Of a DNA stretch of 64,000 nt, positions 36,167 through 61,547 are shown in pieces. The notes under the pieces were generated by a model. The model had not been told where the DNA came from. It did not search any database and saw only the letters and a program-made list of their open reading frames with translations. Every line of letters starts with the position of its first letter. Position 1 is the first letter of the stretch. This DNA comes from Bradyrhizobium sp. AZCC 2262. Its GTDB lineage: Bacteria; Pseudomonadota; Alphaproteobacteria; Rhizobiales; Xanthobacteraceae. The position numbers and the translations under genes were made by a program. The DNA is taken from assembly GCF_036924535.1 (NCBI RefSeq), contig NZ_JAZHRT010000001.1:9166501-9230500 (forward strand), read 5' to 3'.

Positions 36167-36396
36167 GCTTTCGAGGTTGCCATGGGCACACCTTGCGGAC
36201 ATGCAGCGGCAGTCTTCCGATGTCCGCTGTTGGGGGTTGAACAGACCTAAGAGCTGCGCCCGAAGGTCGCTTTTTGACCCACAGCCGACGTTGGATGTTG
36301 GCCGCATGTTCGGTTTGGACGGCCGTGAGAGCTATCGCAAGCTGCGGTTGGTTCCGTTATGTTGCCCTCACCGTCAAAGCCGAGGAACCGTTCCGC

Positions 36397-43346: not shown

Positions 43347-43499
43347 CTAACCGTCCTTCGACTTGGTAACCTCTCTCGCCAGTCGTTCAGCCTTCAGCCG
43401 TTCTAGGTTTTTGCGCAGCGCTTTTTGCTCCTGCTCGTAATCGTTCAGGGGCCTATCCGATGGACGGAACATGCTTGCTTCATTTTCGCGTTTGCTCAT
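43347..43499 (-). CDS. Small helical hypothetical protein
   Basis: Fifty residues start MSKRENEASMFRPSDRPLNDYEQEQ, followed by a charged helix KALRKNLERLKAERLAREV. The 'PLxDYEQEQKALRxNLERLKAERLARE' pattern recurs in Bradyrhizobium and near relatives. The upstream codons to 43547 are not used because AAAGGG precedes this ATG. Confidence 0.6.
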   Translation of the reverse strand: MSKRENEASMFRPSDRPLNDYEQEQKALRKNLERLKAERLAREVTKSKDG

Positions 43500-43617
43500 G
43501 ACGTGACCCTTTTGATGGATGGATCCCCACGACTGAATACCGCGCATCGTACTGGCTCAGACTAACATACTTGAAGGGGCCGATGTCAGTTCTGGCGGCG
43601 AAACTAATGTCTCAGTT

Positions 43618-43938
43618 GGGTCAATCGCGTCGGTTTGCCCCTCCACCGATGACTTCCGGTCTTCCCCCGATAGTGTTGCAAAAGTCGAAAGTTGCAGCGG
43701 TCCAAATTTTTGGCGAAAACCTGAAGCGCAAAGAGGTCGATGATTCGTATAGCCTCAGTCGCGCTACCGAAGTCGCCCATGAATTTGGCGCAAGGCGATG
43801 AGGTCCCTCAGATCATTACACGAAGAACGCGCCAGCGGCCCTCAGAATTTTTGACATCTCCTGCAAAACGACTTTTGCAACACAATCCCCCCGGAAGCGG
43901 ACACCGTCACGGCCGGTCGGCATGTCTCAAAAGTGCCA
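43618..43938 (+). repeat. Dispersed ~97-bp repeat, copy 1, split by MITE
   Basis: The left part is GGGTCAATCGCGTCGGTTTG...CTTCCGGTCTTCCCCC. The right part, after a 219-bp insertion, is CCCCCGGAAGCGGAC...GGTCGGCATGTCTCAAAAGTGCCA. It lies between two minus-strand genes. Confidence 0.85.
43669..43887. mobile_element. 219-bp MITE-like element, copy A
   Basis: Ends GATAGTGTTGCAAAAGTCG and CGACTTTTGCAACACAATC are terminal inverted repeats (18 of 19 paired). CCCCC flanks it on both sides (43664-43668 and 43888-43892), while an uninterrupted copy of the host repeat has a single CCCCC (49487-49492 region). It codes for no protein, so it would need a transposase in trans. Copy B at 45729-45947 has the same length in opposite orientation. 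Confidence 0.88.
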
Positions 43939-44001
43939 TGCGACATTGGCGAACGATGCCACACCGACGCGCCGATGAACAATTGCGGAAAATCGGCGAC
44001 G

Positions 44002-44835
44002 TCAGCGCTGCGATGTATTGGTCGGCTGCCGATCCAACAGAATATCGTTCATCCTGATTTCCAGCGCGATTTTCACGTTCGGGTGCGTCAGAATATAGAA
44101 GCGCCCGTCCTTCACCGCGTCGATCGTGATCTTTGCGATGTCGGCGGCGGATAGCTTTCCTGATTTGATCGCCTGTCTGATGCGATCCGAGTACTGTTCC
44201 GCTTCCGGATTGGAGTCCGCGAGTTCCGCGGGCCGGTTGCGTTCGGAGTTCGATATCCCGGTGTCAACGAATGCGGGGCATAGCACGGAAACGCCGATCG
44301 GCGCATTCTGGCCGCGCAGCTCGTGATGAAGGCATTCCGTGATCGCGACTACGGCGTGTTTGCTCGCGGCATAGACGCCTGAGCCCGGGGGCGCAAGCAG
44401 CCCCGCTGCGGAGGCTGTGTTGACGATGTAAGACTCTTCCTTTTGCGCCAGCATGCGCGGCACGAAGCTGCGCAACCCGTGAACCACGCCCATCACGTTG
44501 ATACCCAGCGTCCACTTCCAGTCGTCGAGCGTGGCCGTCCAGATCGGCCCCGCCGTTCCCACGCCCGCGTTGTTGAAGAGCAAGTGGCATGCGCCAAAGC
44601 GGTCGTATGTCGACCTTGCCAGTTGCTCAATGCTGTCGGCACGGGAGACGTCGCTGCCAATCACGAGGGACTCGGTGCCAGGCTTGAGCAGCGCGACGGT
44701 GGTACCTAAGCCACCTGTATCGATATCTGTGAGAATAACCTTCATTCCTTCGTCGGCGCAACGGATCGCAAATTCACGACCAAATCCACTGGCCGCACCC
44801 GTAATCACCGCAACTTTTCCGTGAAGCTCTTTCAT
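44002..44835 (-). CDS. Short-chain dehydrogenase/reductase
   Basis: This 277-residue classical SDR has the cofactor motif TGAASGFGREFA (residues 12-23), NNAGVG near 90, catalytic Ser in NTASAAG, and YAASKHA with the Tyr-Lys pair near 155-159. Asp after the second strand (LTDID) suggests NAD preference. It is slightly longer than average because of an extended C-terminal region. The substrate is unknown. Confidence 0.92.
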   Translation of the reverse strand: MKELHGKVAVITGAASGFGREFAIRCADEGMKVILTDIDTGGLGTTVALLKPGTESLVIGSDVSRADSIEQLARSTYDRFGACHLLFNNAGVGTAGPIWTATLDDWKWTLGINVMGVVHGLRSFVPRMLAQKEESYIVNTASAAGLLAPPGSGVYAASKHAVVAITECLHHELRGQNAPIGVSVLCPAFVDTGISNSERNRPAELADSNPEAEQYSDRIRQAIKSGKLSAADIAKITIDAVKDGRFYILTHPNVKIALEIRMNDILLDRQPTNTSQR

Positions 44836-45037
44836 GGCGAGTCCTAGTGAGAAACACGTCGGGAAGTACGGTTGCGCCGGTTTCTTGTAATGAAGGCGCG
44901 CCTATCACCGGGATTGCGATATCATCGATAGAGCCGGCGTTCGACCCGCGCCTCGGCCATTATTGCGCTCCGATGCGTAATACGGAAAGTCTATGGGCTA
45001 AGACCGGGATGTGTCCATCGAGTTCGCAATCCGCTTG

Positions 45038-45133
45038 GGGTCAATCGCGTCATTTTGCTCCTCAGCCGACTACTTCCGGTCTCCCCTGGAAACGGACATC
45101 GTCAGGGCCGGTCGCCACGTCTCAAAGGTGCCA
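45038..45133 (+). repeat. Dispersed ~97-bp repeat, copy 2
   Basis: GGGTCAATCGCGTCATTTTG...ACTTCCGGTCTCCCCTGGAA ACGGACATCGTCAGGGCCGG...CTCAAAGGTGCCA. It ends 16 bp before the 3' end of the GNAT gene. Confidence 0.85.
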
Positions 45134-45149
45134 GTTTCGGACCTGACGG

Positions 45150-45617
45150 TTAGTCCGCAAGGCAAAGGTTCATCGCTAGTTTCGGCAACATTCTTCCCGG
45201 CACCGAGCCAGACGGCGCTTGGCCGACATCGTAAGCTCCCATCCTGCGGTAAAAGGGAGCGGCATCGGGATCCGCCTCGATCGTTAGTCGCGTGGCACCC
45301 AGTTCTTTCGCGACGTCGGTAGCCCAAGCGAACAGCGCCTTACCCGTGCCGCTGCGGAGCGCGCTGGGCTCGACGAATAGTTTCAGCAAATCAGCTTCAT
45401 CATCGACTACTCTTAGCTGTGCAACACCGATTGGCTTGCCGTCATGTTCAGCAACCGCGATGGGCGTCAACTCCAAGTCGCGCGGTTCAAACGACAACTC
45501 GCCGCGACACGCTTCCATGAATTCCTCGTCGTAGCCCCAGACAGCCTTAGACCTGAAACACAGATCGGAAAGGCCGGATAACTCATCAATCGTCGGCGGT
45601 CGGAGTTTCAGAGCCAA
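45150..45617 (-). CDS. GNAT-family N-acetyltransferase
   Basis: This 155-residue protein has the GNAT fold, with acetyl-CoA-binding motif A in LLKLFVEPSALRSGTGKALFAWATDVAKELGATRLTIEADPDAAPFYRRMG (about 87-140). The last part, PFYRRMGA, is the classic motif B end. The acceptor is unknown. Confidence 0.9.
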   Translation of the reverse strand: MALKLRPPTIDELSGLSDLCFRSKAVWGYDEEFMEACRGELSFEPRDLELTPIAVAEHDGKPIGVAQLRVVDDEADLLKLFVEPSALRSGTGKALFAWATDVAKELGATRLTIEADPDAAPFYRRMGAYDVGQAPSGSVPGRMLPKLAMNLCLAD

Positions 45618-45677
45618 GCAAAACCTCTTTCGACTTGAGGGAGCGGTGTAGCATTTCAGCTTGCCAATGTCTCTTGT

Positions 45678-45998
45678 GGGTCAAATTCGGCAGTCAGGGC
45701 GTGCAACTCGGCAGTCCGCTTTACCCTCGATATTGTTGCGAAAGTCTTTTTGGGGTGGCGAACGAAAATTCTTAGAGCTGCTGATACGCTTTATGCGCGG
45801 CAACGTGAGGGACCATATCGTTTCATCCAAAATCGATCACGAACCTCCGCAGTGGCGTTGAAAAGCGACGCAGCTGCGGAGAAGTCCAAAGATCAACTTT
45901 CGCGAGATTTTCCGGGTCGCTCGATTTTCGACTTTTGCAACAATATCCCCTCAAAAACGGACGTCGCCAGGGGGGCCTGTCAGGTCCGAAAAGTGCCA
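45678..45998 (+). repeat. Dispersed ~97-bp repeat, copy 3, split by MITE
   Basis: A subfamily copy: GGGTCAAATTCGGCAGTCAG...AGTCCGCTTTACCCTC | 219-bp insert | CCCTCAAAAACGGACGTCGCC...GTCCGAAAAGTGCCA. It ends 14 bp before the 3' end of the hydrolase-cyclase gene. Confidence 0.83.
45729..45947. mobile_element. 219-bp MITE-like element, copy B
   Basis: Ends GATATTGTTGCGAAAGTC and GACTTTTGCAACAATATC are inverted repeats (17 of 18). CCCTC is duplicated at both sides (45724-45728, 45948-45952). When copy A is reverse-complemented, both copies have TGAGGGACC at the same offset (bases 78-86) and share further interior matches, so they are one family inserted in opposite orientations. No ORF is carried. 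Confidence 0.88.
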
Positions 45999-46012
45999 AA
46001 CCCGGACATGTA

Positions 46013-47326
46013 CTACGCACTCGCGGCGAACAAATCCCAACGGCCGGGCAAGCCCTTGAGTTTATGCGAGCCGCGCTCGGCAAACTTCAGGCCCGCCCCG
46101 GCAACAAGGTCGGTGACAACTCTTGAAACAAGAACTTCACTGGGTTGAGACTGCGCCATGACGCGGGCGGCTGCATGGACGGCAATGCCGCCAATGTCTC
46201 TTCCTCTGATCTCAATTTCCCCAGTGTGAAGCCCCGCGCGGAGCGGCAAGCCAATCTGCTTTGAGGCCGTTCCGAGCGCCAAGGCACATCGAACCGCACG
46301 GCCCGGCCCATCGAATGTCGCTAAAATCCCATCACCCGTCGACTTGACCAAGGTCCCACGATGTTTCTCAATCGTTTGAATGGCCAATTGGTCATGATTG
46401 TCCAGCAATCTCCGCCAGGCCTGATCGCCCATGGTGGCAGCGCTGCGCGTCGAATCGACGATATCCGTAAACAACACCGTGGCGAGAACGCGTTCCAAGT
46501 CGCTCGATGAACTTTCGCGATGCCCCGTGATGAACTCTTCGATGTCGCCAAGCGCCGCTTCGACGTCGCCGATGATAAAGAGATGGTCGCCGCCGGGATA
46601 TTCTATCAGTTTGGCATCGGGAATGCACGCTGCCAATTCGCGGCCACGTTCAACCGGAACCATCACGTCGCCTTGATTGTGAAGCACGAGTGTCGGAACG
46701 CGCACTGCCGGGAGGATGGAACTGACATCGATCTGGGAATTCAAAATCGTAAAGGCTTTGACAGCTCCCGGACTGGCCGAAAGCCGTTCGAACTTGGCAA
46801 ACTGGGCAACTGCAGCCGGGTCCGCTGCCAGGCTTGGAGCGACACGCTTCAGCATTGCGCCCGTGCCCCAGAACTTGATGCGCTGTTCTAATACTTCCGC
46901 CATATTCACGTCGCGCCGGTTCACAAAACCGCCAAACAGAATGAGCCTGGAAACGCGCTCTGGATATGTAGCGGCGAACAAAGCGCTCATCGCGCAACCT
47001 TCGGAATGTCCGAACAGCGTTGCTCGTCGCGAGCCGATAGCATCCATAATGGCGCGAACGTCATCCATTCGCTGTTCGAGCGAAGGCGCGTCAGATACCC
47101 TGTCCGATAATCCCTGACCTCTTTTATCGAACGTCACCACGCGTGCGAAGTTCGAGAGGCGGCGCAAATAAGCGGTATAACCGGGCAGTTCGTGACGGAA
47201 TTCAATGTGTGAAATGAACCCCGGCACCATAATGATGTCGACCGGTCCATCGCCCATCACTTGATAGGCGAGATTGACGTCCCCGCTGAGAGCGTAACGC
47301 GTCTCCGGCAAGTTAAAATCACTCAT
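46013..47326 (-). CDS. Alpha/beta hydrolase fused to adenylate/guanylate cyclase
   Basis: The 437-residue protein has an N-terminal alpha/beta hydrolase (about 8-260; FDKRGQGLSDR and nucleophile motif GHSEGCAMS, with late GGDHLFI supplying His). A C-terminal class III cyclase domain follows (about 275-437; LATVLFTDIVDSTRSAATMGD with a metal-binding Asp, STGDGILATF, GLHTGEIEIRGRDIGGIAVHAAARV). The fusion is established in Bradyrhizobium and mycobacteria. Coupling of a ligand-binding or hydrolytic step to cyclic nucleotide output is plausible but unproven. It is cytosolic by sequence. Confidence 0.92.
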   Translation of the reverse strand: MSDFNLPETRYALSGDVNLAYQVMGDGPVDIIMVPGFISHIEFRHELPGYTAYLRRLSNFARVVTFDKRGQGLSDRVSDAPSLEQRMDDVRAIMDAIGSRRATLFGHSEGCAMSALFAATYPERVSRLILFGGFVNRRDVNMAEVLEQRIKFWGTGAMLKRVAPSLAADPAAVAQFAKFERLSASPGAVKAFTILNSQIDVSSILPAVRVPTLVLHNQGDVMVPVERGRELAACIPDAKLIEYPGGDHLFIIGDVEAALGDIEEFITGHRESSSSDLERVLATVLFTDIVDSTRSAATMGDQAWRRLLDNHDQLAIQTIEKHRGTLVKSTGDGILATFDGPGRAVRCALALGTASKQIGLPLRAGLHTGEIEIRGRDIGGIAVHAAARVMAQSQPSEVLVSRVVTDLVAGAGLKFAERGSHKLKGLPGRWDLFAASA

Positions 47327-47427
47327 TTAAGTCCTCGAAACCGCAAATAACTTGTTTGTCCTTGGCACGAGGGGATCAAGCGTAACCCGAATCATCCGTC
47401 ATGGCGACGGGCTACGACGTCAGTTCT

Positions 47428-47525
47428 GGGTCATTCGCGTCGGTTTGACCGGATCACGGCGACTTCCGATCTACCCCCGTGAACGGACATTCACAGGATA
47501 GGCGGGCATGTTCTCAAAAGTGCCA
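47428..47525 (+). repeat. Dispersed ~97-bp repeat, copy 4
   Basis: GGGTCATTCGCGTCGGTTTGA...GACTTCCGATCTACCCCCGT, GAACGGACATTCACAGGATA...ATGTTCTCAAAAGTGCCA. Located before the start of the hydrolase-cyclase gene. Confidence 0.8.
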
Positions 47526-47584
47526 AGAGGCGACGTATCAACTGGTGCCGCATGATATAAAACAGGCCGCCTCAGTTGGCGGCT

Positions 47585-47728
47585 TCAATTCAAACGACGG
47601 CGCAACTTCTTGATGATCTCGCGAAGGTCTGCCACGTACTCTTCGATGATCCGTCGCGCTTCCTCTAGCCGCGACGGTTTGGGCGGCGGCTCATCGTTAC
47701 CCGGTTGCGGTTCTTCTGGCGGTGACAT
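47585..47728 (-). CDS. Small helical hypothetical protein
   Basis: Forty-seven residues start MSPPEEPQPGNDEPPPKPSR and lead into a charged helix LEEARRIIEEYVADLREIIKKLRRRLN. The Pro-rich tail plus helix pattern recurs in this genus. The frame opens at 47785, but the upstream part is not family-like. Confidence 0.5.
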   Translation of the reverse strand: MSPPEEPQPGNDEPPPKPSRLEEARRIIEEYVADLREIIKKLRRRLN

Positions 47729-47837
47729 CCACGAACGATCGGCAGCGAACCAAACAGTCCATTGATCTAAATCAATAGGAACCACTTTCAGTTATGAAAT
47801 GACTGCGTTCCACCCAAAATGCGTTAGGAGGGTGCAG

Positions 47838-48235
47838 ATGAGCGAATATGAGAACCGACAGTTTGTTGAGCAGGCTTACGCCGCCTTCAAAGCCGGTGAC
47901 ATCCCGACGCTGTTGCAATCCCTGTCAGAGGACGTCACGTGGAAGTTGCCAGAGATTGAGAACGTGCCTTTTGCCGGCGAGCGACAGGGGCGCGGCGCGG
48001 TCGGCGAATTCTTTTCGACCCTCGCAAGCCTACAGCATGCGCGTTCTTTCGAGGAGCGTGAATTCATTGCTCAGGGCGACAAGGTCGTCGTTCTCGGTCA
48101 TTACGTCTGCAGGTCAAAGCCAACGGGCGCACCATCGACGGCGACTTCGCGCACGTCTTCACCCTCCGCGGCGGTCGGATCGTGGCCTTCCACGAGTACA
48201 TGGACTCAGCCGCGGTCGCCAAAGCGTATCGTTAG
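47838..48235 (+). pseudogene. SnoaL-like/NTF2-fold protein with frameshift
   Basis: The ATG at 47838 (AGGAGGG upstream) opens MSEYENRQFVEQAYAAFKAGDIPTLLQSLSEDVTWK, a SnoaL-like NTF2-fold protein. After GDKVVVLGHYVC (near 48112) the reading frame leaves the family sequence. One base off, the DNA reads KANGRTIDGDFAHVFTLRGGRIVAFHEYMDSAAVAKAYR and ends at TAG 48233-48235. A single-base deletion near 48112-48118 therefore splits an otherwise complete ~132-residue gene. It could be a sequencing error. Confidence 0.75.
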
Positions 48236-48892
48236 AGTATTAGAGCCGTAGATCGCGCGGCGGAGCTGACGTGGACTTGATGTCGCACGTTAAGTCCTCC
48301 GTTGAGCAGAGGCAACCCACAGGAGCAATGCGAAGCCGTTCTTGACCTTCGGGCCGATGGGTAGTCCGCTTTACCCTCAAGAACAGAGGTCGCCAGCCTG
48401 TCCTGTCAGGTCCGAAAAGTGCCACATCCGGACTCATGCGGTGCAGCAAAAAGGCTTTATTCGATCACCTCGTTGGCAAGCGCCAGCAAGGTCGGGGGCA
48501 CGACGATGCCAAGCGATTTCGCGGTGATTCCATAACGAACATTACGCGCACCCGCTTGACCACGTTAGACCACATTGCCACGCGATCAGGCAGGAACGTG
48601 GTGAACGAAACGTTAAGAAGATCGAACAGCGAATGCCCCGGCCCGCGCGCATGGTCCTGTCCCTCCGGGGGGCGGTGCTGGGTAAGATAAGGGGTAAACC
48701 GCCCAAAACCGGACAACGGCAAAAGTGCCATATGCCCCAGCCCGCAGGCTATCCCTCAATCTGGAGTGTGGATATCCGAAAAATAAAAATCGGAATTTAA
48801 GAATTGGAAACCGCACCGTGCGAAGTGCTTGTGTGGCTCATTGCATGCATCGTCACTCCATTGCATGCTCCGCCTTTTTCCGGGAGCGGTCA
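48236..48892. other. Gap holding repeat copy 5
   Basis: This 657-bp gap has a repeat copy at 48350-48424. The remainder (48425-48892) shows a GGGGGGCGGT/ACCGCCC-type imperfect hairpin near 48665-48705, with no gene I can support. Confidence 0.45.
48350..48424 (+). repeat. Dispersed ~97-bp repeat, copy 5 (partial)
   Basis: GGGCCGATGGGTAGTCCGCT TTACCCTCAAGAACAGAGGTCG...GTCAGGTCCGAAAAGTGCCA belongs to the same subfamily as copies 3 and 10. It shows the empty MITE target site TTTACCCTCAAGAAC. Confidence 0.75.
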
Positions 48893-49270
48893 ATGGGCAA
48901 TCTCAAATTTGGCTTGCTAAGCGCTGGCGCGGCGTTGTTCGCGTTCGTCATAGTGCAAGGCGCGAACATGCCGGACACTGGGCCCTCGGAAGCGTCAATC
49001 GTGCGAGCACAGCAGCGCGCCGAGCTTGACGAACTTTGCAAGCAATACTTTAGCGATGGCAAATGCCGCAGTTGGGCAACGGTTGAAAATTTGCGCAAAA
49101 CGATGGCTCGCAACGAGCGGTTAAAGCGAGAAGAGGATGCGAGGATCGCGGGCGTTTGGCAGGACATGCAGACCGGGCGCAATGATCATCCGTTGCCGTG
49201 CGGTGACGCATGCGTGGCAGCCAACAAGGGCGTTGCCGAGCGGCGTCTATACGGAAGCGATTTCCGATGA
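48893..49270 (+). CDS. Small membrane-anchored or secreted hypothetical protein
   Basis: The 125-residue protein starts at ATG 48893 with GGGAGCGG upstream. A hydrophobic N-terminal segment MGNLKFGLLSAGAALFAFVIVQGA acts as signal anchor. The rest is charged and helical, with four cysteines (ELCKQYFSDGKCRSW, PLPCGDACVA) that could form two disulfides in the periplasm. The family is not recognised. Confidence 0.6.
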   Translation: MGNLKFGLLSAGAALFAFVIVQGANMPDTGPSEASIVRAQQRAELDELCKQYFSDGKCRSWATVENLRKTMARNERLKREEDARIAGVWQDMQTGRNDHPLPCGDACVAANKGVAERRLYGSDFR

Positions 49271-49706
49271 TCCTAGCGAATGCGAAACCATGGTTTGCAC
49301 TAGCCGGCAGGCTGCCCGTATGAAGCTCAAAGCCGCAGCCACGAGGCGTCCGATCCGCCGGATGAACGTCTGATATCTCTGGCACCGGGTGGATGGCCGA
49401 AATTGGACACGACCACCATTCCTAGGGCCAACTTCCGCTAAGGGTCAAAAACGGTCCTGACGGCTCCGAAACGCCACTTCCGGTCTTCCCCCGGAAACGG
49501 ACATCGTCGGGGTCGGTCGGCGTGTCTCAAAGGCACCAAGAGCAGAAGTCTTCGAACGCAAGCAACCGAACCCTGTCCCGTACATAAGCGTAAGCATCGC
49601 TGACATGCTTCCGATTGCTCCGTAGAAAAGCATGGTGTGCTTATGAAATCGGCATAATCTACAAGCGCGCGCTGTGGGAATTTCAAAGCTGCCTCGGAGC
49701 TGAATC
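49271..49706. other. Gap holding repeat copy 6
   Basis: This 436-bp gap has a repeat copy at 49442-49538. The rest (49539-49706) should carry the promoter of the TPR gene; no clear site is seen. Confidence 0.45.
49442..49538 (+). repeat. Dispersed ~97-bp repeat, copy 6
   Basis: GGGTCAAAAACGGTCCTGACG...ACTTCCGGTCTTCCCCCGG AAACGGACATCGTCGGGGTCGG...TGTCTCAAAGGCACCAA. It shows the undisturbed MITE target TCTTCCCCCGGAAACGG. Confidence 0.85.
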
Positions 49707-51290
49707 ATGAAGAACACATCGTTCGCGGTTGCTGCTATAGCAGCGGCAGGATTTTCGCTCGCGCAACCCGCATTGGGGCAGTCGGACGAAAAGCTCGGCA
49801 TTGTGAATTTCGAAACATCGTGCAAACCGGAGGCGCAGAAGCTTTTTAACCAAGGGATGCTGTATCAGCACTCGTTCTGGTATCGCGCTTCGCAAAAGGT
49901 TTTCGAAGATGCGCTGAAGGCTGATCCCGAATGCGGCATTGCCTATTGGGGCATCGCGCTAAGCCTGCTGTGGAATCCACACGCTACACCGCCCGCGAAG
50001 AATCTTGCCGAAGGCGCGTCGGTAATCGCAAAGGGCAAGACCGTCGGTGCCAAGACCCAGCGCGAGCGCGATTATATCGACGCGCTCGGCACGATGTATG
50101 CCGACTACGAGAAGGTCGATCACCGCACCCGCCTTCTGGCCTATGCCAAGGCGATGGAGGAATTGGCGCAGCGCTATCCCAACGATGACGAGGCGCAGAT
50201 CCACTATGCCCTCGCGCTCAACACCTCGGCGTCACCGGCCGACAAAACCTACGCCAACCAACTCAAGGGCGCGGCGATCCTGGAGCCGATTGCAGAACGC
50301 CAACCGCAACATCCCGGCGTGTCGCATTACCTGATCCATCTCTACGACTATCCGCCGATCGCTGAGAAAGGTCTCAACGCCGCCCGGCGTTATGCCAAGA
50401 TCGCGCCGGCCGCGGCACACGCCCAGCACATGCCGTCACACATTTTCACGCGCGTCGGCTACTGGACTGAATCGATTGCCTCGAATACCGAGTCCGCGCG
50501 TGTAGCCAAAGACGCCGGGGATTTCGCCGAACAGCTGCATGCCATGGACTACCAGGTTTATGCCTATCTGCAGCTCGGCCAGGACGCCAAAGCCAAGGCT
50601 CTCATCGATGACATGGCTGGTGTCACCGGTTTGACCGAGACCTACATGCCCGGACCCTATGCGTTGGCCATCTCGCCGGCGCGCTATGTGGTAGAGCGCG
50701 GCGACTGGAAGGCGGCTGCGAATCTTCAGGTCCGTCCAAACCCGCTGCCTCAGGTGCAGGCGATTACTTATACGGCGCGCGCGCTCGGAGCGGCCCGCTC
50801 GGGCAATCCGGAAGCCGCCAAGGCCGACATCGCCAAGCTCGCCGAGTTTCGCGACAAGCTGCGTGACGCCAAGGATGCCTATTGGTCAGAACAAGTCGAT
50901 ATCGAACAGCAGGTCGCGACCGCCTGGGTTCTCTATGCCGAAGGCAAGCAGGATGACGCGCTGGCCGCGATGAGCGCGGCCGCCGATGCCGAGGACAAGA
51001 CCGAAAAGCATCCGGTGACCCCGGGCGTGCCGAAACCCGCGCGCGAACTCTACGGCTCCATGCTGCTTGAGCGTGGCATGACCAAGGAAGCACTCGCAGC
51101 ATTCGAAGCGACGCTGAAAAAGGAGCCCAATCGGCTGGGCGCCTATGCGGGTGCGGCCGTGGCCGCCGAAAAGTCCGGCGACCTCGCCAAGGCGCGGGAG
51201 TACTACGGCAAAGTCGTCGCGATTGCCGATAATGCCGACAAGGCCCGCACTGAAGTAGCCGACGCGCGAGCCTTCCTGCAAAAGCGCTGA
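49707..51290 (+). CDS. Exported TPR-repeat protein
   Basis: The 527-residue protein has a signal peptide (MKNTSFAVAAIAAAGFSLAQPALGQ). TPR-like helix pairs follow through most of its length, for example FNQGMLYQHSFWYRASQKVFEDALKADPECGIAYWGIALSL and the C-terminal EALAAFEATLKKEPNRLGAYAGAAVAAEKSGDLAKAREYYGKVVAIAD. It should be periplasmic and bind peptides or partner proteins. A HAQHMPSHIFTRVGYW stretch with clustered His is conserved in this uncharacterised family. A second secreted gene begins 10 bp after the stop. Confidence 0.85.
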   Translation: MKNTSFAVAAIAAAGFSLAQPALGQSDEKLGIVNFETSCKPEAQKLFNQGMLYQHSFWYRASQKVFEDALKADPECGIAYWGIALSLLWNPHATPPAKNLAEGASVIAKGKTVGAKTQRERDYIDALGTMYADYEKVDHRTRLLAYAKAMEELAQRYPNDDEAQIHYALALNTSASPADKTYANQLKGAAILEPIAERQPQHPGVSHYLIHLYDYPPIAEKGLNAARRYAKIAPAAAHAQHMPSHIFTRVGYWTESIASNTESARVAKDAGDFAEQLHAMDYQVYAYLQLGQDAKAKALIDDMAGVTGLTETYMPGPYALAISPARYVVERGDWKAAANLQVRPNPLPQVQAITYTARALGAARSGNPEAAKADIAKLAEFRDKLRDAKDAYWSEQVDIEQQVATAWVLYAEGKQDDALAAMSAAADAEDKTEKHPVTPGVPKPARELYGSMLLERGMTKEALAAFEATLKKEPNRLGAYAGAAVAAEKSGDLAKAREYYGKVVAIADNADKARTEVADARAFLQKR

Positions 51291-51300
51291 GGCGCGTAAG

Positions 51301-51705
51301 ATGAAGCGCATGGCAATACGTATGAAAGCGCTGTTTCTGCCGATCATGCTGAGCGTCCTCGCCACCCCGGCCGGGGCCGCCCAGCCGCTTCAGGTCATCG
51401 GATATTCCGGTTATCTCGGGGAGTGGGAGTTGACCGCGACGGTTACGGAGACAGCTCCCGGATCGACAGCGGAATACTCAGGGCCGCTAACGATGAAGCA
51501 TGTCGGCATCTGCACCCAGGAGGGCCCGGAGGAGAAAACGGGCGCACTACGCTTTCAGATATCGGCCTCATCGTCCCGATTGAATGCAACACTATCGGTT
51601 GCCGGCGTCAAATGTACTTACAGCGGACAATTATCCGACTCATATGCCGGCACAATGAACTGCGCTGGCCGACAGGGCGTTCCGCTTAAGCTGTGGGTGA
51701 AATAG
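51301..51705 (+). CDS. Secreted hypothetical protein
   Basis: The 134-residue protein carries an N-terminal signal peptide (MKRMAIRMKALFLPIMLSVLATPAGAA) and a beta-rich mature part with three cysteines (VGICTQEG, VKCTYSG, MNCAGRQG). The start is 10 bp after the TPR gene stop, so they are probably co-expressed. Function unknown. Confidence 0.65.
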   Translation: MKRMAIRMKALFLPIMLSVLATPAGAAQPLQVIGYSGYLGEWELTATVTETAPGSTAEYSGPLTMKHVGICTQEGPEEKTGALRFQISASSSRLNATLSVAGVKCTYSGQLSDSYAGTMNCAGRQGVPLKLWVK

Positions 51706-51863
51706 CCCTCGCCTCGAAGACCGCAATGAACTCGCGTCGCTTCATTTCCCTAAGCCATTGGCTATCGCTGGTCGAAGCATCCCTCTCGTGGGAACGGGAC
51801 GGCGCGAACTTGTAGAGATGATTTGCCCGACGAGGAGTGCGGGAAAGTAGCGATCTCTGCCCT

Positions 51864-51960
51864 GGATCAACCACGTCGTTTTGGCTGTCAGCCGGCTACT
51901 TCCGGTCTTCCCCGGAAGCGGACATCGTCACGGCCAGTCGGCGTGTCTCAAAAGTGCCAA
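51864..51960 (+). repeat. Dispersed ~97-bp repeat, copy 7
   Basis: GGATCAACCACGTCGTTTTGG...TACTTCCGGTCTTCCCCGG AAGCGGACATCGTCACGGCC...CTCAAAAGTGCCAA. It ends 7 bp before the 3' end of the cyclase-TPR gene. Confidence 0.85.
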
Positions 51961-51966
51961 TAACGG

Positions 51967-53787
51967 TCATTCCGGCATTCCCGCGATCCGGTAAGCCTGC
52001 GCCAATCTTCCGATATCTTCCGCCCTGCGAAAAGGAGTCCTGTCCCGAATTCGAGAAATTCGTGGGGCCGGATTCCGTTGCATTAAGCGCGCGCAGATCG
52101 CTCGCGCTTCCTCAATTCTTCCAGACATCGCATGGCATGCCATCATGATAAGTTGTGCGGAAAAATAATTTGGTTGTTGCCCGATGGCGGTCGCCGCCCA
52201 CGTAGCGGCCTCATCATTGCGGCCGGCGAAAAAATGAGCATAGGCCAATCCGGTCTGGACAACGAAGTTCCGAAGATTCAGCGGACTCAAACGCAAGGCG
52301 AACTCGAATTGCTTGATCGCGGCATCTACATCACCGAGATAAAGGTGGACCCAACCGCTCCAATGGCGTGCGGCAGCCATATTTGGGTCTAACTTTATCG
52401 CCCGCGAGACGAGGGCCGCGCCTTCCTCAACCTCACCCACTACGAAAGCGAGCGCATTTCCGGCCCATGCGAGCACCGATGGGTCGTCTTTATCGAGTTC
52501 GATCGCCCGCCTCGCGAGCCGCCGGGCCTCAGCTATCTCCTGGGCAGCAGTATCGATTCTCCAGCCGTAAGCTTTCCTTTGTATATAGCAACGAGCGCCG
52601 AGCGCGTACGCTGCGGCGAATTCGGGATCGATACCGTTGGCAATTTTGGTGAGCTTGAGCGCTTCAATGTTCGTTTCACGGGCGAACCGATAAACGCAAG
52701 CGAGCGCGCGAAGATAATAGTCGTAGGCCTGAAGGCTTTCGGTCGGTTTGCGCTTTGCTCGATCGATTTCGGCGCGTTCAAGCTTGGGAGAGATTGCGCC
52801 GATCACGTTAATGGTGACCCGATCCTGCAGATCGAAAATATCATCGAGTTGGCTGTCGAACCGGTCGGCCCAGAGATGCGCTCCTGTTGCGGCATCGATG
52901 AGCTGTCCTGAGATACGAACGCGATTGCCGGCCTTGCGCACACTGCCTTCGAGCACGTAGCGAACGCCAAGTTCATGGCCGACCTGCTTGATATCGACGG
53001 CCTTGCCTTTGTAGGTAAAGGTGGAGTGTCGCGCGATGACGAAGAGCGATTTGGACCGCGACAGTCCGGTAATAATGTCCTCGACCATGCCGTCGGCGAA
53101 ATATTCCTGTTCCGGATCGACGCTCATGTTCTGGAACGGGAGCACCGCGATGGAGGGCTTGTCGGGGAGAGGGAGCGGCTGCGCAGTCTTGCTCGACAGC
53201 TTTGTTACCATTGCCCGGGAAGAGGTTGGGGCAATGCGCACGCGCCAGACCCGTATCGGTTCGGCGATATTCTTCAAAGATTGCGAACCTGTATCCTCAA
53301 AGGTGATATCTACCTTGCCACGAATTTGCCGGTGCGCATCGTCGGAAATGCTAAAGCCGCCCGGTTCTGCGATCCCTTCGAGACGCACTGCAATATTGAC
53401 GCCGTCACCAAAGATATCATCCTCTGCGATGATAATATCGCCGACGTGAATGCCGATGCGAAATTCGATCCGTTTGTCCGGCGGCACATCAGTATTGTGT
53501 TCGGCCATGCCGCGTTGGATTTCGTCGGCACATCGCACGGCGTCGACCACGCTCCCGAACTCAACGAGAGCGCCGTCCCCGGTATTCTTGACGATGCGCC
53601 CGCGGTGATCGCTGATTTTGGGATCAAAAAGCGTCTTTCTCAGAGCTTTCAGTTGGGCCAGCGCGCCTTCTTCGTCGATCCCTATCAAGCGGCAAGAGCC
53701 CACAATATCCGCTGCCAGAATCGCTACCAGCCGCCGCTCTACGTGCTCTCTGCTCAAGATGCACCCCCGGGGCTCGGGGAAACTCAA
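51967..53787 (-). CDS. Adenylate/guanylate cyclase with TPR C-terminus
   Basis: This 606-residue paralogue of the cyclase-TPR gene at 14265-16082 has a cyclase domain (about 15-190; VERRLVAILAADIVGSCRLIGID, NTGDGALVEF, GDIIIAEDDIFGDGVNIAVRLEG). A TolB-like segment (about 210-350, LPFQNMSVDPEQEYFADGMVEDIITGLSR) and TPR-like repeats to the end follow. The ATG at 53787 gives 15 extra residues before the usual family start; a TTG near 53757 is an alternative. Signal and partner unknown. Confidence 0.9.
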   Translation of the reverse strand: MSFPEPRGCILSREHVERRLVAILAADIVGSCRLIGIDEEGALAQLKALRKTLFDPKISDHRGRIVKNTGDGALVEFGSVVDAVRCADEIQRGMAEHNTDVPPDKRIEFRIGIHVGDIIIAEDDIFGDGVNIAVRLEGIAEPGGFSISDDAHRQIRGKVDITFEDTGSQSLKNIAEPIRVWRVRIAPTSSRAMVTKLSSKTAQPLPLPDKPSIAVLPFQNMSVDPEQEYFADGMVEDIITGLSRSKSLFVIARHSTFTYKGKAVDIKQVGHELGVRYVLEGSVRKAGNRVRISGQLIDAATGAHLWADRFDSQLDDIFDLQDRVTINVIGAISPKLERAEIDRAKRKPTESLQAYDYYLRALACVYRFARETNIEALKLTKIANGIDPEFAAAYALGARCYIQRKAYGWRIDTAAQEIAEARRLARRAIELDKDDPSVLAWAGNALAFVVGEVEEGAALVSRAIKLDPNMAAARHWSGWVHLYLGDVDAAIKQFEFALRLSPLNLRNFVVQTGLAYAHFFAGRNDEAATWAATAIGQQPNYFSAQLIMMACHAMSGRIEEARAICARLMQRNPAPRISRIRDRTPFRRAEDIGRLAQAYRIAGMPE

Positions 53788-53840
53788 TGTTCATATAGCA
53801 CAATTGCGGACCAATGTCCGACTGTGCCCGCTTCCGAAAT

Positions 53841-53937
53841 GGGTCAAGAGCGCCGGTTTGAAGCCCCGCCGACTGCTTCCGGTCTACCCCAATCAACGGA
53901 TATTATCAGAGCGGCCCAGTTGGTCCGTTTGGTGCCA
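53841..53937 (+). repeat. Dispersed ~97-bp repeat, copy 8
   Basis: GGGTCAAGAGCGCCGGTTTGA...TGCTTCCGGTCTACCCCAAT CAACGGATATTATCAGAGCGG...GGTGCCA, a diverged copy. Confidence 0.7.
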
Positions 53938-53974
53938 AAATCGGACTTATGTGTTGACGGCGACCTCGGTCTGA

Positions 53975-54005
53975 CGACGCGCTCCGAGGCGGCTTTGGAG
54001 CCGCC
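53975..54005 (-). terminator. Hairpin with stem GAGGCGGCT / AGCCGCCTC
   Basis: GAGGCGGCT-ttgg-AGCCGCCTC is followed by TTTCTC on the plus side. It lies after the relic at 54021-54107 when read on the minus strand, or ends a plus-strand transcript. Confidence 0.5.
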
Positions 54006-54020
54006 TCGTTTCTCGTATGC

Positions 54021-54107
54021 TCACCGACAGGCGTACATCTGCCCGTCGTCAAGCTTGGTCATGGTACCGGGCTTGCACCCGGATGGTGTTGCGCGCCTGG
54101 TAGTCAT
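54021..54107 (-). pseudogene. Remnant of a small secreted protein
   Basis: The C-terminal frame reads SGCKPGTMTKLDDGQMYACR. In an overlapping frame upstream, a related reading YGYSGWDDYQARNTIR appears. Together they look like one short secreted-protein family member split by a frameshift. Recognition is weak. Confidence 0.3.
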
Positions 54108-54203
54108 CCCACCCGCTGTAGCCGTACCAGGGGCACCGCCCGCGTAGTAGCGCCCCTCACTGCGTAGTGACGGGTACTACTAATTGAACGACGAGACCTG
54201 ACG

Positions 54204-54710
54204 CTATTGCACCTTGATGGTCCCGTTCGCGTTGAAGTTGTCCTTTGGGTTATACCCTGAGTCGTGCAGATTTTTGATATACTGGGCGCGGTCGCTGCTG
54301 CTCACACCGCCCCACGCCGCGGATGGACCGCCGTAGTAGGCCGCCCTGGCACCCAGAACATTCCCACCGTAGTAAGGACCACCTGCGTAGTAACCTGTGC
54401 CTGTTTGGTAGGGGTTGCCTCCCCATCCCCTGTTAGGTGAGGTGGCCGCGACCGCGCCAGCCGTGCCAATCGCGGCAGCCGTGCCGACCGCTGCGGCACC
54501 TGCGCCGACTACACCGGCGCCGTAAACAGCCCGCCGGTTGTGCCGGCGCGCAACACCGGCCCCGCTCACCGGGGTCAGCGGGCGACCTACCCGCGCCTGG
54601 GCGCTCTCGATTGACAGCGAGATGCCGCCTTGCTCAGACCAACCGAAGGACAACAATGCCGCACACGTAAAGGCAGAAGCTGCAAGGGCAGTCTTTCGTG
54701 CATGTTTCAT
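54204..54710 (-). CDS. Secreted Gly/Ala-rich protein
   Basis: The 168-residue protein starts at MKHARKTALAASAFTCAALLSFGW (signal peptide). A Gly/Ala stretch near 60-95 (AGVVGAGAAAVGTAAAIGTAGAVAA) could act as a membrane helix. A Gly/Tyr-rich section (YYAGGPYYGGN) follows, then a folded C-terminus SSSDRAQYIKNLHDSGYNPKDNFNANGTIKVQ. It is probably an envelope protein of unknown role. Confidence 0.65.
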   Translation of the reverse strand: MKHARKTALAASAFTCAALLSFGWSEQGGISLSIESAQARVGRPLTPVSGAGVARRHNRRAVYGAGVVGAGAAAVGTAAAIGTAGAVAATSPNRGWGGNPYQTGTGYYAGGPYYGGNVLGARAAYYGGPSAAWGGVSSSDRAQYIKNLHDSGYNPKDNFNANGTIKVQ

Positions 54711-54871
54711 GGGCTTTCTTCCGTTGTGCAAAGAACATCAATGTTGCACCACGCGTGCCTACGTCACCGTGTCAGATCGAGTTCCGACTTTTTGGCGGAA
54801 ATGTTGATAACATTCATGTTACTGCCGATGCTCGGCATGGGTGGCGCTCCCCGCGTCCCCACTTCTGCAAC

Positions 54872-54968
54872 GGGTCATTTCCGTCGTTCTAAACGTGCTC
54901 CGTTCACTTCCGGTCTTCCCCGACTAGCGGACATTCGCAGGGTCGGTCGGCATGTCTCAAAAGTGCCA
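54872..54968 (+). repeat. Dispersed ~97-bp repeat, copy 9
   Basis: GGGTCATTTCCGTCGTTCTA...CACTTCCGGTCTTCCCCGAC TAGCGGACATTCGCAGGGTCGG...TCTCAAAAGTGCCA. It is in the gap between the divergent secreted-protein and Rrf2 genes. Confidence 0.85.
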
Positions 54969-55234
54969 AATCCGGACTCGTGCGCCGCAGCAAACTGCCA
55001 GACTACCCAATCAGCTCGTCAACAAGCGAGAGCGGCACGGCGGAAGTCGCGATGCACTAGGCCGTTGCCGCCTGCGTTTGCGGCGCCGCCAACTTTCTCA
55101 CAAAGCCGCGATGAGTGACTGCTCAGCTAGCCGGCGGCGACGGCAACACTGCCCACCTGGTCAACAACGCTGGCATCACCGGGAGCACCGCCTGTGCTGG
55201 CAGGGATCGTGGCGATCGGACGCGATGCTCGAGC

Positions 55235-55271
55235 TTGACAGCCTTAAATGTAACTGGTATGGTTACGGTTA
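55235..55271 (+). promoter_or_regulatory. Promoter with overlapping operator before Rrf2 gene
   Basis: TTGACA (55235-55240) and TATGGT (55258-55263) stand 17 bp apart. The predicted start lies about at the ATG (55271), implying a leaderless message. GTAAC (55250-55254) and GTTAC (55262-55266) form an inverted repeat over the -10 box, positioned for autorepression. Confidence 0.6.
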
Positions 55272-55684
55272 TGACCGCGAACAGTCGTATGGCAAGTGCC
55301 GTCCATATCAGGAGTTTCGTCGCTTACGCCGGCGACGAGGGAACGACTTCGGAGGCAATCGCGAAAAGCCTCCAGACCAACCCGGTCGTGGTGCGGAAGA
55401 TCCTCAAGCTTCTCGAGCGGGAGGGACTGGTCGCTCTTTGCCAAGGCCGTCACGGCGGCGTCGGTCTCCGGCGCCCGGCATCTCGCATAACACTCGGTCA
55501 GATCTACAAGGCGGTTGAAAGCGAGACCGGCGTTTTTGCCATGCGCAGCCAAGTGCATGAAGGATGCGCGGTGGCCTGCGCGATGAAACGAAGGCTCGGC
55601 CCAATCTTCAACGCTGCGAACGACGCCGTTGAGCAGGCTCTCAGCAAAACGAGTCTCGCGGAGCTGGTACGCTGCGTCGGCTAA
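55271..55684 (+). CDS. Rrf2-family transcriptional regulator
   Basis: This 137-residue winged-helix regulator has its helix-turn-helix in residues 5-65 (MASAVHIRSFVAYAGDEGTTSEAIAKSLQTNPVVVRKILKLLEREGLV), then GGVGLRRPASRITLGQIYKAVE. Two cysteines (GCAVACAMK) lie where Fe-S-binding Rrf2 proteins such as IscR hold ligands, but a third is missing; a redox thiol role is possible. ATG 55271 follows a good promoter; the upstream in-frame ATG at 55259 overlaps the -10 box and is unlikely. The SDR gene follows and shares a TGTAACTG motif in its upstream region. Confidence 0.87.
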   Translation: MTANSRMASAVHIRSFVAYAGDEGTTSEAIAKSLQTNPVVVRKILKLLEREGLVALCQGRHGGVGLRRPASRITLGQIYKAVESETGVFAMRSQVHEGCAVACAMKRRLGPIFNAANDAVEQALSKTSLAELVRCVG

Positions 55685-55736
55685 ATTTGCCTGAAATTGT
55701 AACTGACACGGATATGTTTAATAAGGAGTGATGACA

Positions 55737-56498
55737 ATGGGTAGGCTAACGGACAAGAATATCCTTATCACCGGCGGTAACAGCGGGATCGGGCTGGCCA
55801 CAGCGCAGGAATTCGACCGAGAGGGCGCGCGCGTCGCCATCTGCGGCTTGAATGAAAGGACGCTGCAGGCGGCCAAAGGGACGTTGGGAGCCGAAAGTCT
55901 CGCCGTTCGCGCGGACGTCAGCAAACTCGCCGACCTCGATACGATGTTCGCCACGATCAAGCGGGAGTTCGGGCACCTGGACGGCCTGTTCGTAAATGCA
56001 GGTTACAGCGAGTTCCTGCCGTTCGAAGAGGTGACAGAGCAAAGCTTCGACATGGTGATAGGCTCCAATTTCAAAGGGGCTTACTTCACCATTCAAAAGG
56101 CCTTGCCGCTGCTCAGGCCGGGCTCGTCTGTCGTCATCAATGCGTCCGTTGGCGCGCGCAAGGGGTGGCCGACGACCTCGACCGTCTCGACCTGCAAGGC
56201 CGCGGTCGTCCATCTCGCGCGAATCCTCAGCGCCGAGCTCGTCGGCCGCGGGATTCGCGTGAATACCCTAAGCCCAGGCCCGACGGACACGGCGATGTTC
56301 GGTCGCTTCGCAGGCGAAGAGCAGGGCGACGCGGTCAAGGGCGTCCTTGCAACCAACAATCCCAGCAAGCGGATGGCCGATCCGTCGGAAATCGCGAAGC
56401 TGGCGGTTTATCTCGCCTCGGACGATTCCGCGTACATCGTCGGAGCAGACTTCCTGATCGACGGCGGGGTCTCAGCCATTTCGCCCGTGGGCGCTTGA
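55737..56498 (+). CDS. Short-chain dehydrogenase/reductase
   Basis: The 253-residue SDR has TGGNSGIGLATA (cofactor loop, about 12-23), VNAGYS, and a late LSPGPTDT. The usual catalytic YxxxK is replaced by STVSTCKAAVVHLA: the Lys is present but the Tyr is not seen at its normal place, a change found in some divergent quinone-reductase-like SDRs. The start at 55737 has AAGGAG at 8 nt; earlier GTG/ATG codons are too close. It is the likely target of the upstream Rrf2 regulator, whose TGTAACTG motif recurs in the 52-bp gap. Confidence 0.9.
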   Translation: MGRLTDKNILITGGNSGIGLATAQEFDREGARVAICGLNERTLQAAKGTLGAESLAVRADVSKLADLDTMFATIKREFGHLDGLFVNAGYSEFLPFEEVTEQSFDMVIGSNFKGAYFTIQKALPLLRPGSSVVINASVGARKGWPTTSTVSTCKAAVVHLARILSAELVGRGIRVNTLSPGPTDTAMFGRFAGEEQGDAVKGVLATNNPSKRMADPSEIAKLAVYLASDDSAYIVGADFLIDGGVSAISPVGA

Positions 56499-56718
56499 GC
56501 TTCATTGCAGAGAGTCGGGGCCGTTCCTGTTTCCGCTCAGGCAATGGATGGCTCGCACCGCCACAGGCTGCCAGTATCATGCGGAGGGTTCACCTCCCGG
56601 AATGCGAGGGTACGAACGAGTGAAGTTCCCCGGCCCAAGTGAAGTCAAGATTTCTCCGCCCTTTGGTCCTCGGAAGAGGGTACTCGCGGACGAGAACAGT
56701 TAGAGGAGGCATCACCTA

Positions 56719-57504
56719 ATGCCGACCAAAGACGATTTTAATCCGGACCATCGTTTGCCTCGCTTTCTCGCCCGTGAACCTGAGCAGCAGGCTCTCGGGA
56801 AAGCTTGGGACAGAGCTGTTATCTCGTCCCGCGTTCTCAAGGCGAGCATCTGGGCTGCAGTGGCGACAGCGCTGAGTGTTGCGATTCTATCGGTGGTGGG
56901 TAATCCAGTGACGCTCCTTGCGGACGTCAAGACTTCCATTGGGGACGTCACGGCTTCCATTGCGGACGTCACGCCTCCGCTCGCCAACAAATCGGCGCTC
57001 CAGCCTGACACCCATCAGTCGATGCCAACAATTCAATCTAGCGCCGAAGTTCAGGCTTTGCCGCTGGCGGCAAAGGAAGTGCTGGCCCGCGAGGAAAATG
57101 CTGCCTCCTCTGAACCCACCGGTCAGAACCAAACGGAAAATGGCGAAGACCTGTTTAGGCAATTCCAAGCTTGGGCGGCCGAGAAAGATGCGCAGGCACA
57201 AGTCGGGCCCGTACAGTCTGTTCAAAATGCCCGGGCGCAGATTGTGCAAAATGCCCCAGCGCAGGTTGCGGAAGGTAGCCGAGCGTCACTCCGGCCCATG
57301 CAAAAACACCGACACGTCAGGCCCGTCCACAACGCACGGGCGGAGATGCGGCCAGTGAACAATCCACGAAAGAAAGTCCGGCGGGAACAAAGTTCGCGCA
57401 TCCAAGACCCGCGCGCACAAGAAGCCCGAGCGCGGGGACAGGGCCAGGTTGTGCAAAGTCCCCAGGCACCGTCGTTCCTCCAAACCTTCGGTTGGCCCAA
57501 TTAG
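56719..57504 (+). CDS. Single-span membrane protein, Arg/Gln-rich C-terminus
   Basis: The 261-residue protein has a short cytoplasmic N-terminus, one transmembrane segment (about 42-62: ASIWAAVATALSVAILSVVGNPVTLLA), and a long low-complexity tail with repeated VQNARAQIVQNAPAQV. Ribosome-binding AGAGGAGG is about 10 nt before the ATG. This general architecture is frequent in Bradyrhizobium. Function unknown. Confidence 0.7.
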   Translation: MPTKDDFNPDHRLPRFLAREPEQQALGKAWDRAVISSRVLKASIWAAVATALSVAILSVVGNPVTLLADVKTSIGDVTASIADVTPPLANKSALQPDTHQSMPTIQSSAEVQALPLAAKEVLAREENAASSEPTGQNQTENGEDLFRQFQAWAAEKDAQAQVGPVQSVQNARAQIVQNAPAQVAEGSRASLRPMQKHRHVRPVHNARAEMRPVNNPRKKVRREQSSRIQDPRAQEARARGQGQVVQSPQAPSFLQTFGWPN

Positions 57505-58227
57505 GCATAACTCCGTTCAAGCGTTTTAGAGCAGCCGGCCGTGCTCCGAGCAGGAGCTGATCGTGCACCTCAAGGGAGCTGCCATGCCATCTCGACAGCG
57601 GCGGCTTTTAACCCATCAGCGAGTCTGGGACGCGCGCTGCTCATAGCCGCCGCCGCTCATAAACTGTCGCCGACCAGTTTGCCCGGCATTCGCCGCCGCT
57701 CGATGGAAGTGCCCGCGTGGAGCGGTGCTGCCACTGCATGCGCCCTTTCGAGGTGGCCGCTACCTTGCAGCTGCGAGTTGCTCAACTTGCTGTAGGCAGC
57801 TCCGAGAGGCTTTGCGGTGCTACCGTCTTGCAAACAAACACGTTGGCGTGGGCGTACCATTCGCGGCTCCTGGTTTAACCCTCGAAATAAAATAGTAACT
57901 CAAGGTGCGGGGCAAGGTCCGACGGTGTCCGCTTTGAACGCAACAGCAGACCTAACAGAGCGCTGGCTCCAAGTCCGTTAAGTGCCGATAGTGTTGTAAG
58001 TGCCGATAGTGTTGAAAAAGTCTTTTTGGGGCTCCCGGCCAAGCGCGCATGGCATATGTCCCGCGGACTCAACGTCTGGAAGTCTGCCCTTTCCCATCAT
58101 CCACACCCGGTCTGTTGAAGGTGGTGATTTGGCATCAGGCTTGAAACCAGCGATACCCTCCGGCAGCGACGTGTATCCCGTTAGCTCGAAAATAAGATGA
58201 TTGGGTTGAGCTGAACGGAACGGATAT
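57505..58227. other. Long gap with tandem duplication and MITE-end-like sequence
   Basis: This 723-bp gap has no supported gene. An 18-bp unit TAAGTGCCGATAGTGTTG is perfectly duplicated (57979-57996, 57997-58014), and the second copy runs into a sequence resembling the left end of the 219-bp MITE. No matching right end is seen. Confidence 0.5.
57979..58014 (+). repeat. 18-bp tandem duplication
   Basis: Two identical units TAAGTGCCGATAGTGTTG lie head to tail. Confidence 0.9.
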
Positions 58228-58728
58228 TCATAGGGCAGTTCGCCTCCTGATACTTGATTCAGCAATCTCTTTCGAGTGCTTCAGAAACATGGCGCTCCGC
58301 TTGCTCGTGAATTCCGCAGTAACACTGAGAAATTCGACGGGCGACTTAATCGTCGCAAGCCTCTGAGCGAACTCAAAGCCAAATTGCATGTTGGCTTGTG
58401 CCACCTCCAGCAACTTCGCTTGAAAAGCTCGCACGTTTGCCGTGGCTGAAGAAAAATCAGATCCTTTCGTTGGAACGTTATTGGGCTCATCTTGTATGGC
58501 TGTTGCCGGCTCAAGGCGAGCCTCGTGAAAAACTGTCATCGGATCACCCACGAGAGCCTCTTCTTCGTTATGTCGCTCTGGGTGTGATTCAGTCGAGGCT
58601 GCCCCAACTGAGGGCAGACGGTTGTCTTTGGGACTTCTAACAACAGCCTGAGCGACCCGACGGGCCTTAGCGGCTATTTTCGGGCCGCGGCTGTGCGTTG
58701 ACTTAGTTGCCGGTTTACGCTTACTCAT
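58228..58728 (-). CDS. Phasin-family protein
   Basis: The 166-residue protein has a basic N-terminal tail (MSKRKPATKSTHSRGPKIAAKARR) and a C-terminal phasin helix (about 100-155: VRAFQAKLLEVAQANMQFGFEFAQRLATIKSPVEFLSVTAEFTSKR). Phasins coat polyhydroxyalkanoate granules. The basic tail resembles those that bind DNA or granules, but that role here is inference. It is one of two phasins in 2 kb, divergent from the other. Confidence 0.8.
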   Translation of the reverse strand: MSKRKPATKSTHSRGPKIAAKARRVAQAVVRSPKDNRLPSVGAASTESHPERHNEEEALVGDPMTVFHEARLEPATAIQDEPNNVPTKGSDFSSATANVRAFQAKLLEVAQANMQFGFEFAQRLATIKSPVEFLSVTAEFTSKRSAMFLKHSKEIAESSIRRRTAL

Positions 58729-60789: not shown

Positions 60790-60856
60790 TTATTGCAACC
60801 ATTGACGCGCCTCTCGCTTAGCATGTGCAGCATCCCGCTGTGCAGGAGACAGCGAG

Positions 60857-61466: not shown

Positions 61467-61547
61467 CGTTTGCAATTTCGAACGCCGCGGCGACGTCAGC
61501 AGTTAAGCACGACGGAATATGAGCCGTGAAACCGGCAGACGTCCGGG

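Follow-up and report, generated by a model that had tools for sequence, protein, structure and literature searches.

In a 64,000-nucleotide stretch of the genome of Bradyrhizobium sp. AZCC 2262 (the window), two short elements with inverted ends interrupt copies of one dispersed repeat, which raises the question of what determines the insertion site of such elements and which transposase moves them. Element A (43669..43887, minus strand) and element B (45729..45947, plus strand) are each 219 bp long, and their ends, lengths, and target duplications were confirmed by reading the sequence. The strands were assigned from an internal GAGGGACC motif. Both elements have 18-bp inverted ends (GATNNTGTTGCRAAAGTC). 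In A these are located at 43669..43686 (plus) and 43870..43887 (minus) with the termini GATAGTGTTGCAAAAGTC and GATTGTGTTGCAAAAGTC, and in B at 45729..45746 (plus) and 45930..45947 (minus) with the termini GATATTGTTGCGAAAGTC and GATATTGTTGCAAAAGTC. Direct repeats of 5 bp flank both elements, CCCCC at 43664..43668 and 43888..43892 around A, and CCCTC at 45724..45728 and 45948..45952 around B. An earlier note on this DNA had described all these features correctly, including the opposite orientation of the elements (TGAGGGACC is found at 43802-43810 on the minus strand and at 45806-45814 on the plus strand) and the internal motif, which both elements share at an equal alignment offset.

A and B thus have the short length, terminal inverted repeats, and target duplications of MITEs, and there is no conserved coding capacity in the family. 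A coding role was rejected because the longest stop-free frame varies between members (30 of 35 members compared). A structured RNA was rejected as well, given that no Rfam model matches 43400-46300 even at E up to 1, and that the consensus fold of 35 members has -4.3 kcal/mol with 13 of its 20 pairs within the ends. From the sequence comparisons described here it is very likely that A and B are non-autonomous MITEs that have an IS1182-type partner and insert at the centre of a dyad.

The earlier note had proposed a single fixed point of a dispersed repeat as the insertion site. What determines the site is instead a dyad-symmetric sequence, the quasi-palindrome ATGTCCGCTTT-N-AAAGCGGACAT with insertion at its centre, and 71 of 99 sites are located outside detectable repeat copies. 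These 99 sites comprise 59 MITE and 40 IS sites. MITE-size elements were defined by a length of 140-240 bp. A 4-bp duplication is present in 32 of these 80 elements and a 5-bp duplication in 27, while the 21 with neither were excluded from the logos and site tests. Of the 61 IS rows, 21 were excluded for not having two readable ends plus a 4- or 5-bp duplication. The 59 MITE rows represent 56 site clusters and the 40 IS sites 29 clusters, the latter obtained by clustering on 34 nt, which also merges sites that have only the consensus in common. The exact choice of site by the MITE family has stood the comparison, and the supposedly constant 5-bp duplication has not, since it comprises either 4 or 5 bp.

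With the sites aligned on the duplication, the arms ATGTCCGCTTT and AAAGCGGACAT are equidistant from each duplication edge in both classes. In a scan of offsets 0-9, the best half-site offset equals the duplication length in 52 of 54 flanks of the 5-bp class and in 61 of 64 flanks of the 4-bp class, and 107 of 118 arms score above the 99% background, the arm matrix having been trained on the same rows as those scanned. The joins are about 3 nt inside each arm. This fixed distance implies that the duplication length is the arm spacing minus 6, so that a spacing of 10 nt gives 4 bp and a spacing of 11 nt gives 5 bp. One element, at locus L034, was counted as 4 bp, yet its site is of the 5-bp type. 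Among the 21 MITE-size elements without a 4- or 5-bp duplication, 13 have half-sites above threshold on both sides and eight fail. Four of these 13 have one half-site of each class. One 4-bp-type and one 5-bp-type flank are seen in L028:1496-1714, L059:6414-6632, L131:7447-7665, and L167:7497-7715; by inspection, L135 has similar mixed flanks, but one of its arms is below the threshold. Mixed-flank MITEs are probably the result of recombination between MITE copies. A perfect-dyad pattern was too strict for counting targets, because it found two sites in the own genome, each on both strands, with one and one in the control.

A palindromic target could be recognised by its letters or by its shape. 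The target is a quasi-palindrome with the duplication as its centre, and IS1272, a member of the same family as the partner transposases described below, is reported to attack hairpins (in the accessible portions of PMC5678879 and PMC4923244). Both facts would fit a transposase whose target is an extruded hairpin or cruciform of which the loop alone becomes duplicated, comparable to pathway c in the IS1272 model of Wan et al. 2017; the accessible portion of PMC5678879 proposes a route that would duplicate a loop only. For the 40 IS sites alone, the pairing of the arms is indeed slightly above that of shuffled arms (6.72 versus 6.45, P 0.09). However, within-site pairing over all 99 sites is 6.38 of 12 compared to a shuffled mean of 6.41 (sd 0.13, P 0.61), and pairing in the MITE sites is even below the shuffled values (5.75 versus 6.21 and 6.63 versus 7.17). 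In addition, the half-site letters are conserved in their own right (C 97%, G 88%). Structure-specific targeting is therefore an improbable explanation, and the pairing data favour a transposase that would read letters over one that would read a hairpin shape.

Which transposase could read these letters? The expectation that the site would lead to the transposase proved justified, as other genomes of the genus contain IS1182-family elements that have similar ends and target the same dyad. The IS1182 family is thus the likely transposase source. IS1182-family transposases with the Pfam domains DUF772, DDE_Tnp_1_6, and DDE_Tnp_1 (clade I) are encoded by elements of 1542 and 1562 bp that have the same ends as the MITEs, and score 403 and 347 bits against the NCBIfam IS1182 model (NF033551; cut-off 270). 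A second group (clade II) has the ends GATTGTGTTGCAAAACTC, is about 57% identical to clade I, and scores 379 and 386 bits against the same model and cut-off. The MITE ends (AAAAGTC) and the clade II ends (AAAACTC) differ in one base, a point against clade II as the partner. The partner transposases thus belong to the IS1182 family, and A and B, with 219 bp, are too short to encode a transposase themselves. When the genus was searched with the clade I protein, 95 of 146 genomes had a match (E up to 1e-20), including distant matches such as the IS5-like one of the own genome. Clade II is present in 10 of 265 genomes when the threshold is set at E 1e-200. Within the own genome there is no close match to either clade, the best being 38% identity over part of the protein for clade I and 34-36% over parts for clade II, and the best match to the transposases is IS5-like. 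The eight own-genome clade I matches (L188-L195) do not have such ends; an end pair in L195 with four and three mismatches was taken as chance. A family scan, of L188 alone among these eight, scored best with IS5.

Several other candidates were rejected. The 1158-bp element of L161 consists of an IS5-like sequence between MITE-like ends and is, by inspection, an insertion into a MITE. The 531-bp element of L170 contains pieces of a clade I transposase gene and does not belong to the 219-bp family. Descent of the MITE by deletion from the 13 IS copies compared is also not supported, because practically the ends alone match. Of 1322 weak MITE-IS matches with these 13 copies, 24 extend more than 30 nt from an end, with a best E of 0.003; this interior comparison left out the MITE that neighbours the IS in L246.

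The full IS copies occupy the same dyad as the MITEs, and their duplication lengths follow the clades. The clade II sample comprises 15 distinct copies from 20 rows, five of which repeat the same copies. Readable duplications are present in nine of the 15 (L246, L248, L249, L250, L297, L298, L300, L301, and L302), and all have 5 bp, for example CACTC in L246. Six copies are without an end or a clear duplication. By inspection, L284, a truncated clade II copy, adjoins a 4-bp-type half-site. Two clade II copies occupy sites of the same types as A and B do, L250 with CCCCC and L302 with CCCTC. The other counted IS rows have 4 bp in 32 cases and 5 bp in one (L308 from Paraburkholderia, outside clade II), and those from Bradyrhizobium have 4 bp and are found on dyads that are one base shorter. 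On a tree built from 40 transposase rows, of which 37 are different, two changes are enough to explain the 4/5 label compared to a shuffled mean of 7.4, and none of 500 shufflings was as low. Seven Bradyrhizobium 5-bp rows form a single group with a support of 100/100; L301 and L302 were left out of this tree, and their ends were taken from examination of the individual copies. In eight plasmid stretches (L303-L310), the duplication has 4 bp in five, 5 bp in one, and is unclear in two. The Sinorhizobium and Rhizobium copies among these (L304-L306) have a similar dyad.

In contrast to the IS clades, which each keep one length, near-identical MITEs carry both lengths. B with its 5-bp duplication is 94% identical to the element of L179 with 4 bp. 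The elements of L172 (4 bp) and L173 (5 bp) are from the same genome and 95% identical. Those of L100 (5 bp) and L023 (4 bp) are 95% identical as well. Nearest MITE neighbours below 97% identity have equal duplication lengths in only 35 of 55 cases. The simplest reading is that the MITEs are probably moved by both clades. It could also be imagined that one transposase makes both lengths and that the spacing of the target alone sets 4 or 5. Such a transposase would account for the presence of both lengths in one MITE subfamily and for the constant distance between join and arm. However, the full IS copies are split by clade, with 5 bp in nine of nine readable clade II copies and 4 bp in all but one of the others, and we regard a single transposase as an improbable source of both lengths.

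In the explanation that we favour, IS1182-family DDE transposases would recognise the ends of A and B in trans. A transposase dimer would read the two half-sites ATGTCCGCTTT and AAAGCGGACAT by sequence, and the stagger of its cut, 4 or 5 bases, would depend on the clade. A and B with their 5-bp duplications would most likely have been moved by the clade with the ends GATTGTGTTGCAAAACTC, which was not found in this genome, while 4-bp clades would also move the same MITEs. Taken together, we lean slightly towards a system in which two clades use one half-site code with staggers one base apart, so that the duplication length reads out the dyad spacing, in which one MITE family exploits both clades, and in which the dispersed repeat is a three-slot landing array with a 5-bp dyad between two 4-bp dyads.

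The repeat was analysed with a profile built from nine copies, of which the window supplied three, and nhmmer was run on the window and on joined flanks. The earlier description of a repeat of about 97 bp interrupted by A and B was correct with respect to the interruption, but the length is nearer 125-130 bp. A splits a copy on the plus strand at 43599..43940 (43599-43672 and 43887-43940) at its central dyad, at about profile position 76, as found by nhmmer in two halves and on the joined flanks. B also splits a copy at the central dyad, of which the right part is located at 45946..46013 (plus) and the left part is visible only on the joined flanks. Uninterrupted copies, both also sources of the profile, are present at 45014..45150 (plus, E 6e-36), which was used for the empty-site comparison, and at 47406..47538 (plus, E 9e-37). 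The undisturbed copies have the 5-mer region once, as previously noted. Further copies matching the profile in the window are located at 48365-48437, 49426-49553, 51844-51975, 53826-53953, 54859-54980, and 61581-61660, with a weak match at 36190-36296. Ten repeat copies are packed into 18 kb (43599-61663 of the window). With a single copy as query, 13 places came up genome-wide (E up to 0.001); the window accounts for four, and others are near 0.49, 3.47, and 5.27-5.28 Mb. Plasmid records matching the repeat number four and are all from Bradyrhizobium.

Of the 99 joined insertion sites, 28 match the repeat profile (E up to 1e-4), namely 25 of the 59 MITE and three of the 40 IS sites. Counting the insertions at the supposed single point of the repeat showed that all 28 fall on a dyad, but not at one point. 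The insertion centres are at profile positions 30-31 (four sites), 74-78 (12 sites), and 121-122 (12 sites), the positions for L020 and L087 being extrapolated past the matched part. The repeat thus contains three dyads, spaced at about 46 bp. The duplications have 5 bp in all 12 sites at 74-78 and 4 bp in all 16 others. At L246:275-2149, a clade II IS occupies one dyad of a repeat copy and a MITE the next dyad; this MITE has 219 bp and a TGCC duplication and is about 50 bp from the clade II copy.

MITEs with IS1182-type partners are a known kind of element, and A and B belong to it. The partners resemble the IS1182 family (NF033551, with ISCfr1-like relatives) in that their transposases pass the family cut-off, and A and B are unlike it in carrying no transposase. 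The partners here have one conserved half-site sequence and duplications of 4 or 5 bp tied to the clade. Palindromic targets have been noted for some IS1182 members (Siguier et al. 2015, as cited in the accessible portions of PMC4923244 and PMC5678879). According to the same portions, IS1272/TnSha1, an IS1182-family element of Staphylococcus, targets inverted repeats, and the stem-loop is removed wholly or partly, with no duplication and no primary-sequence consensus. As far as these accounts go, the family and the inverted-repeat targets are thus the same, but here there are a duplication and a strong consensus. Replacement of a stem-loop as in IS1272 is not the pattern seen here, because the duplication and both arms are kept in 59 of 80 MITE-size and 40 of 61 IS rows. 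Similar to the bacterial MITEs RUP, NEMIS, and Nezha, as described in the accessible part of PMC3733652, the elements are short, non-coding, and probably movable in trans, and have terminal inverted repeats. They differ from those accounts in dyad-specific insertion, in ends that are apparently used by two transposase clades, and in an interior unmatched by the 13 IS copies compared. The same part of PMC3733652 lists GTAG- and CGTC-tagged palindromes in Bradyrhizobium. Among the titles and abstract openings listed from the open-access literature on Bradyrhizobium MITEs, IS1182 palindromes and duplications, and IS1182 in Bradyrhizobium, we did not find the MITE family, the half-site rule, or the sharing by two clades. 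As far as searched, novelty lies in the half-site rule, in a stagger that would be specific to the clade, in the probable use of one MITE family by both clades, and in a repeat with three dyads. A brief remark that some IS1182 members target palindromes becomes a concrete rule that names the half-site, sets the distance of the join, and ties the stagger to the clade, and this rule makes sequence-specific versus hairpin-specific targeting testable. The elements would also exemplify a MITE family on which two transposase clades act.

The genome-wide search for the terminal repeats that the earlier note had suggested found ten matches to the end pattern TGTTGCRAAAGTC in the 9.48-Mb single-contig genome compared to none for the reversed control, which is more than expected by chance. 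This genome contains at least five full elements (A, B, L015, L016, and L017) and a half element (L014). L015 has 215 bp, one end with a mismatch, and the flanks GTGCC and GGCC; L016 has 199 bp and no clear duplication; and L017 has 219 bp and the 4-bp duplication TGCC. In the genus, TGTTGCRAAAGTC is found in 79 of 146 genomes with at most 28 copies in one, and the reversed control in 25 of 146 with at most three in one, so that a lone match in another genome may be fortuitous. Scanning the species genome collection for the end pattern gave at least 120 stretches, 80 of them with titles, and most non-Bradyrhizobium rows among the 80 titled matches listed are without a second end. Phage records have no match for B.

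When ends were paired in the window and in loci L014-L187, 94 distinct elements resulted. Two with flanks below 15 nt were left out, and the remaining 92 have duplications of 4 bp in 37, 5 bp in 27, and other or none in 28 cases. Exactly 219 bp are found in 45 of the 92, though the identity between some members, A and B for example, is no more than about 55%. In one orientation, A and B are 54.8% identical, and their nearest relatives are different, L140 and L123 for A (97-98% identity) and L177, L179, and L108 for B (93-95%). Judged by their sequences, A and B are independent insertions and not a recent duplication, as indicated by the low identity and the different target duplications. The scenario named in the earlier note as refuting, that both descend from the duplication and inversion of a single locus, is compatible with their distance of 1.8 kb, their opposite orientation, and their location in copies of one repeat, but is extremely improbable given their identity, relatives, and duplications.

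Among the 75 oriented members, the GAGGGACC motif is at position 79 in 44 and within positions 75-78 in eight, and 23 do not have its exact form. The 219-bp length and this motif are both kept among members that are only about 55% alike. Elements of 148 bp (L051:2105-2252, L091:2309-2456, L097:5956-6103, and L107:3902-4049) have similar ends and the same dyad target with different interiors. By inspection, the MITE at L174:1232-1449 looks chimeric, its left end resembling one subfamily and the rest another.
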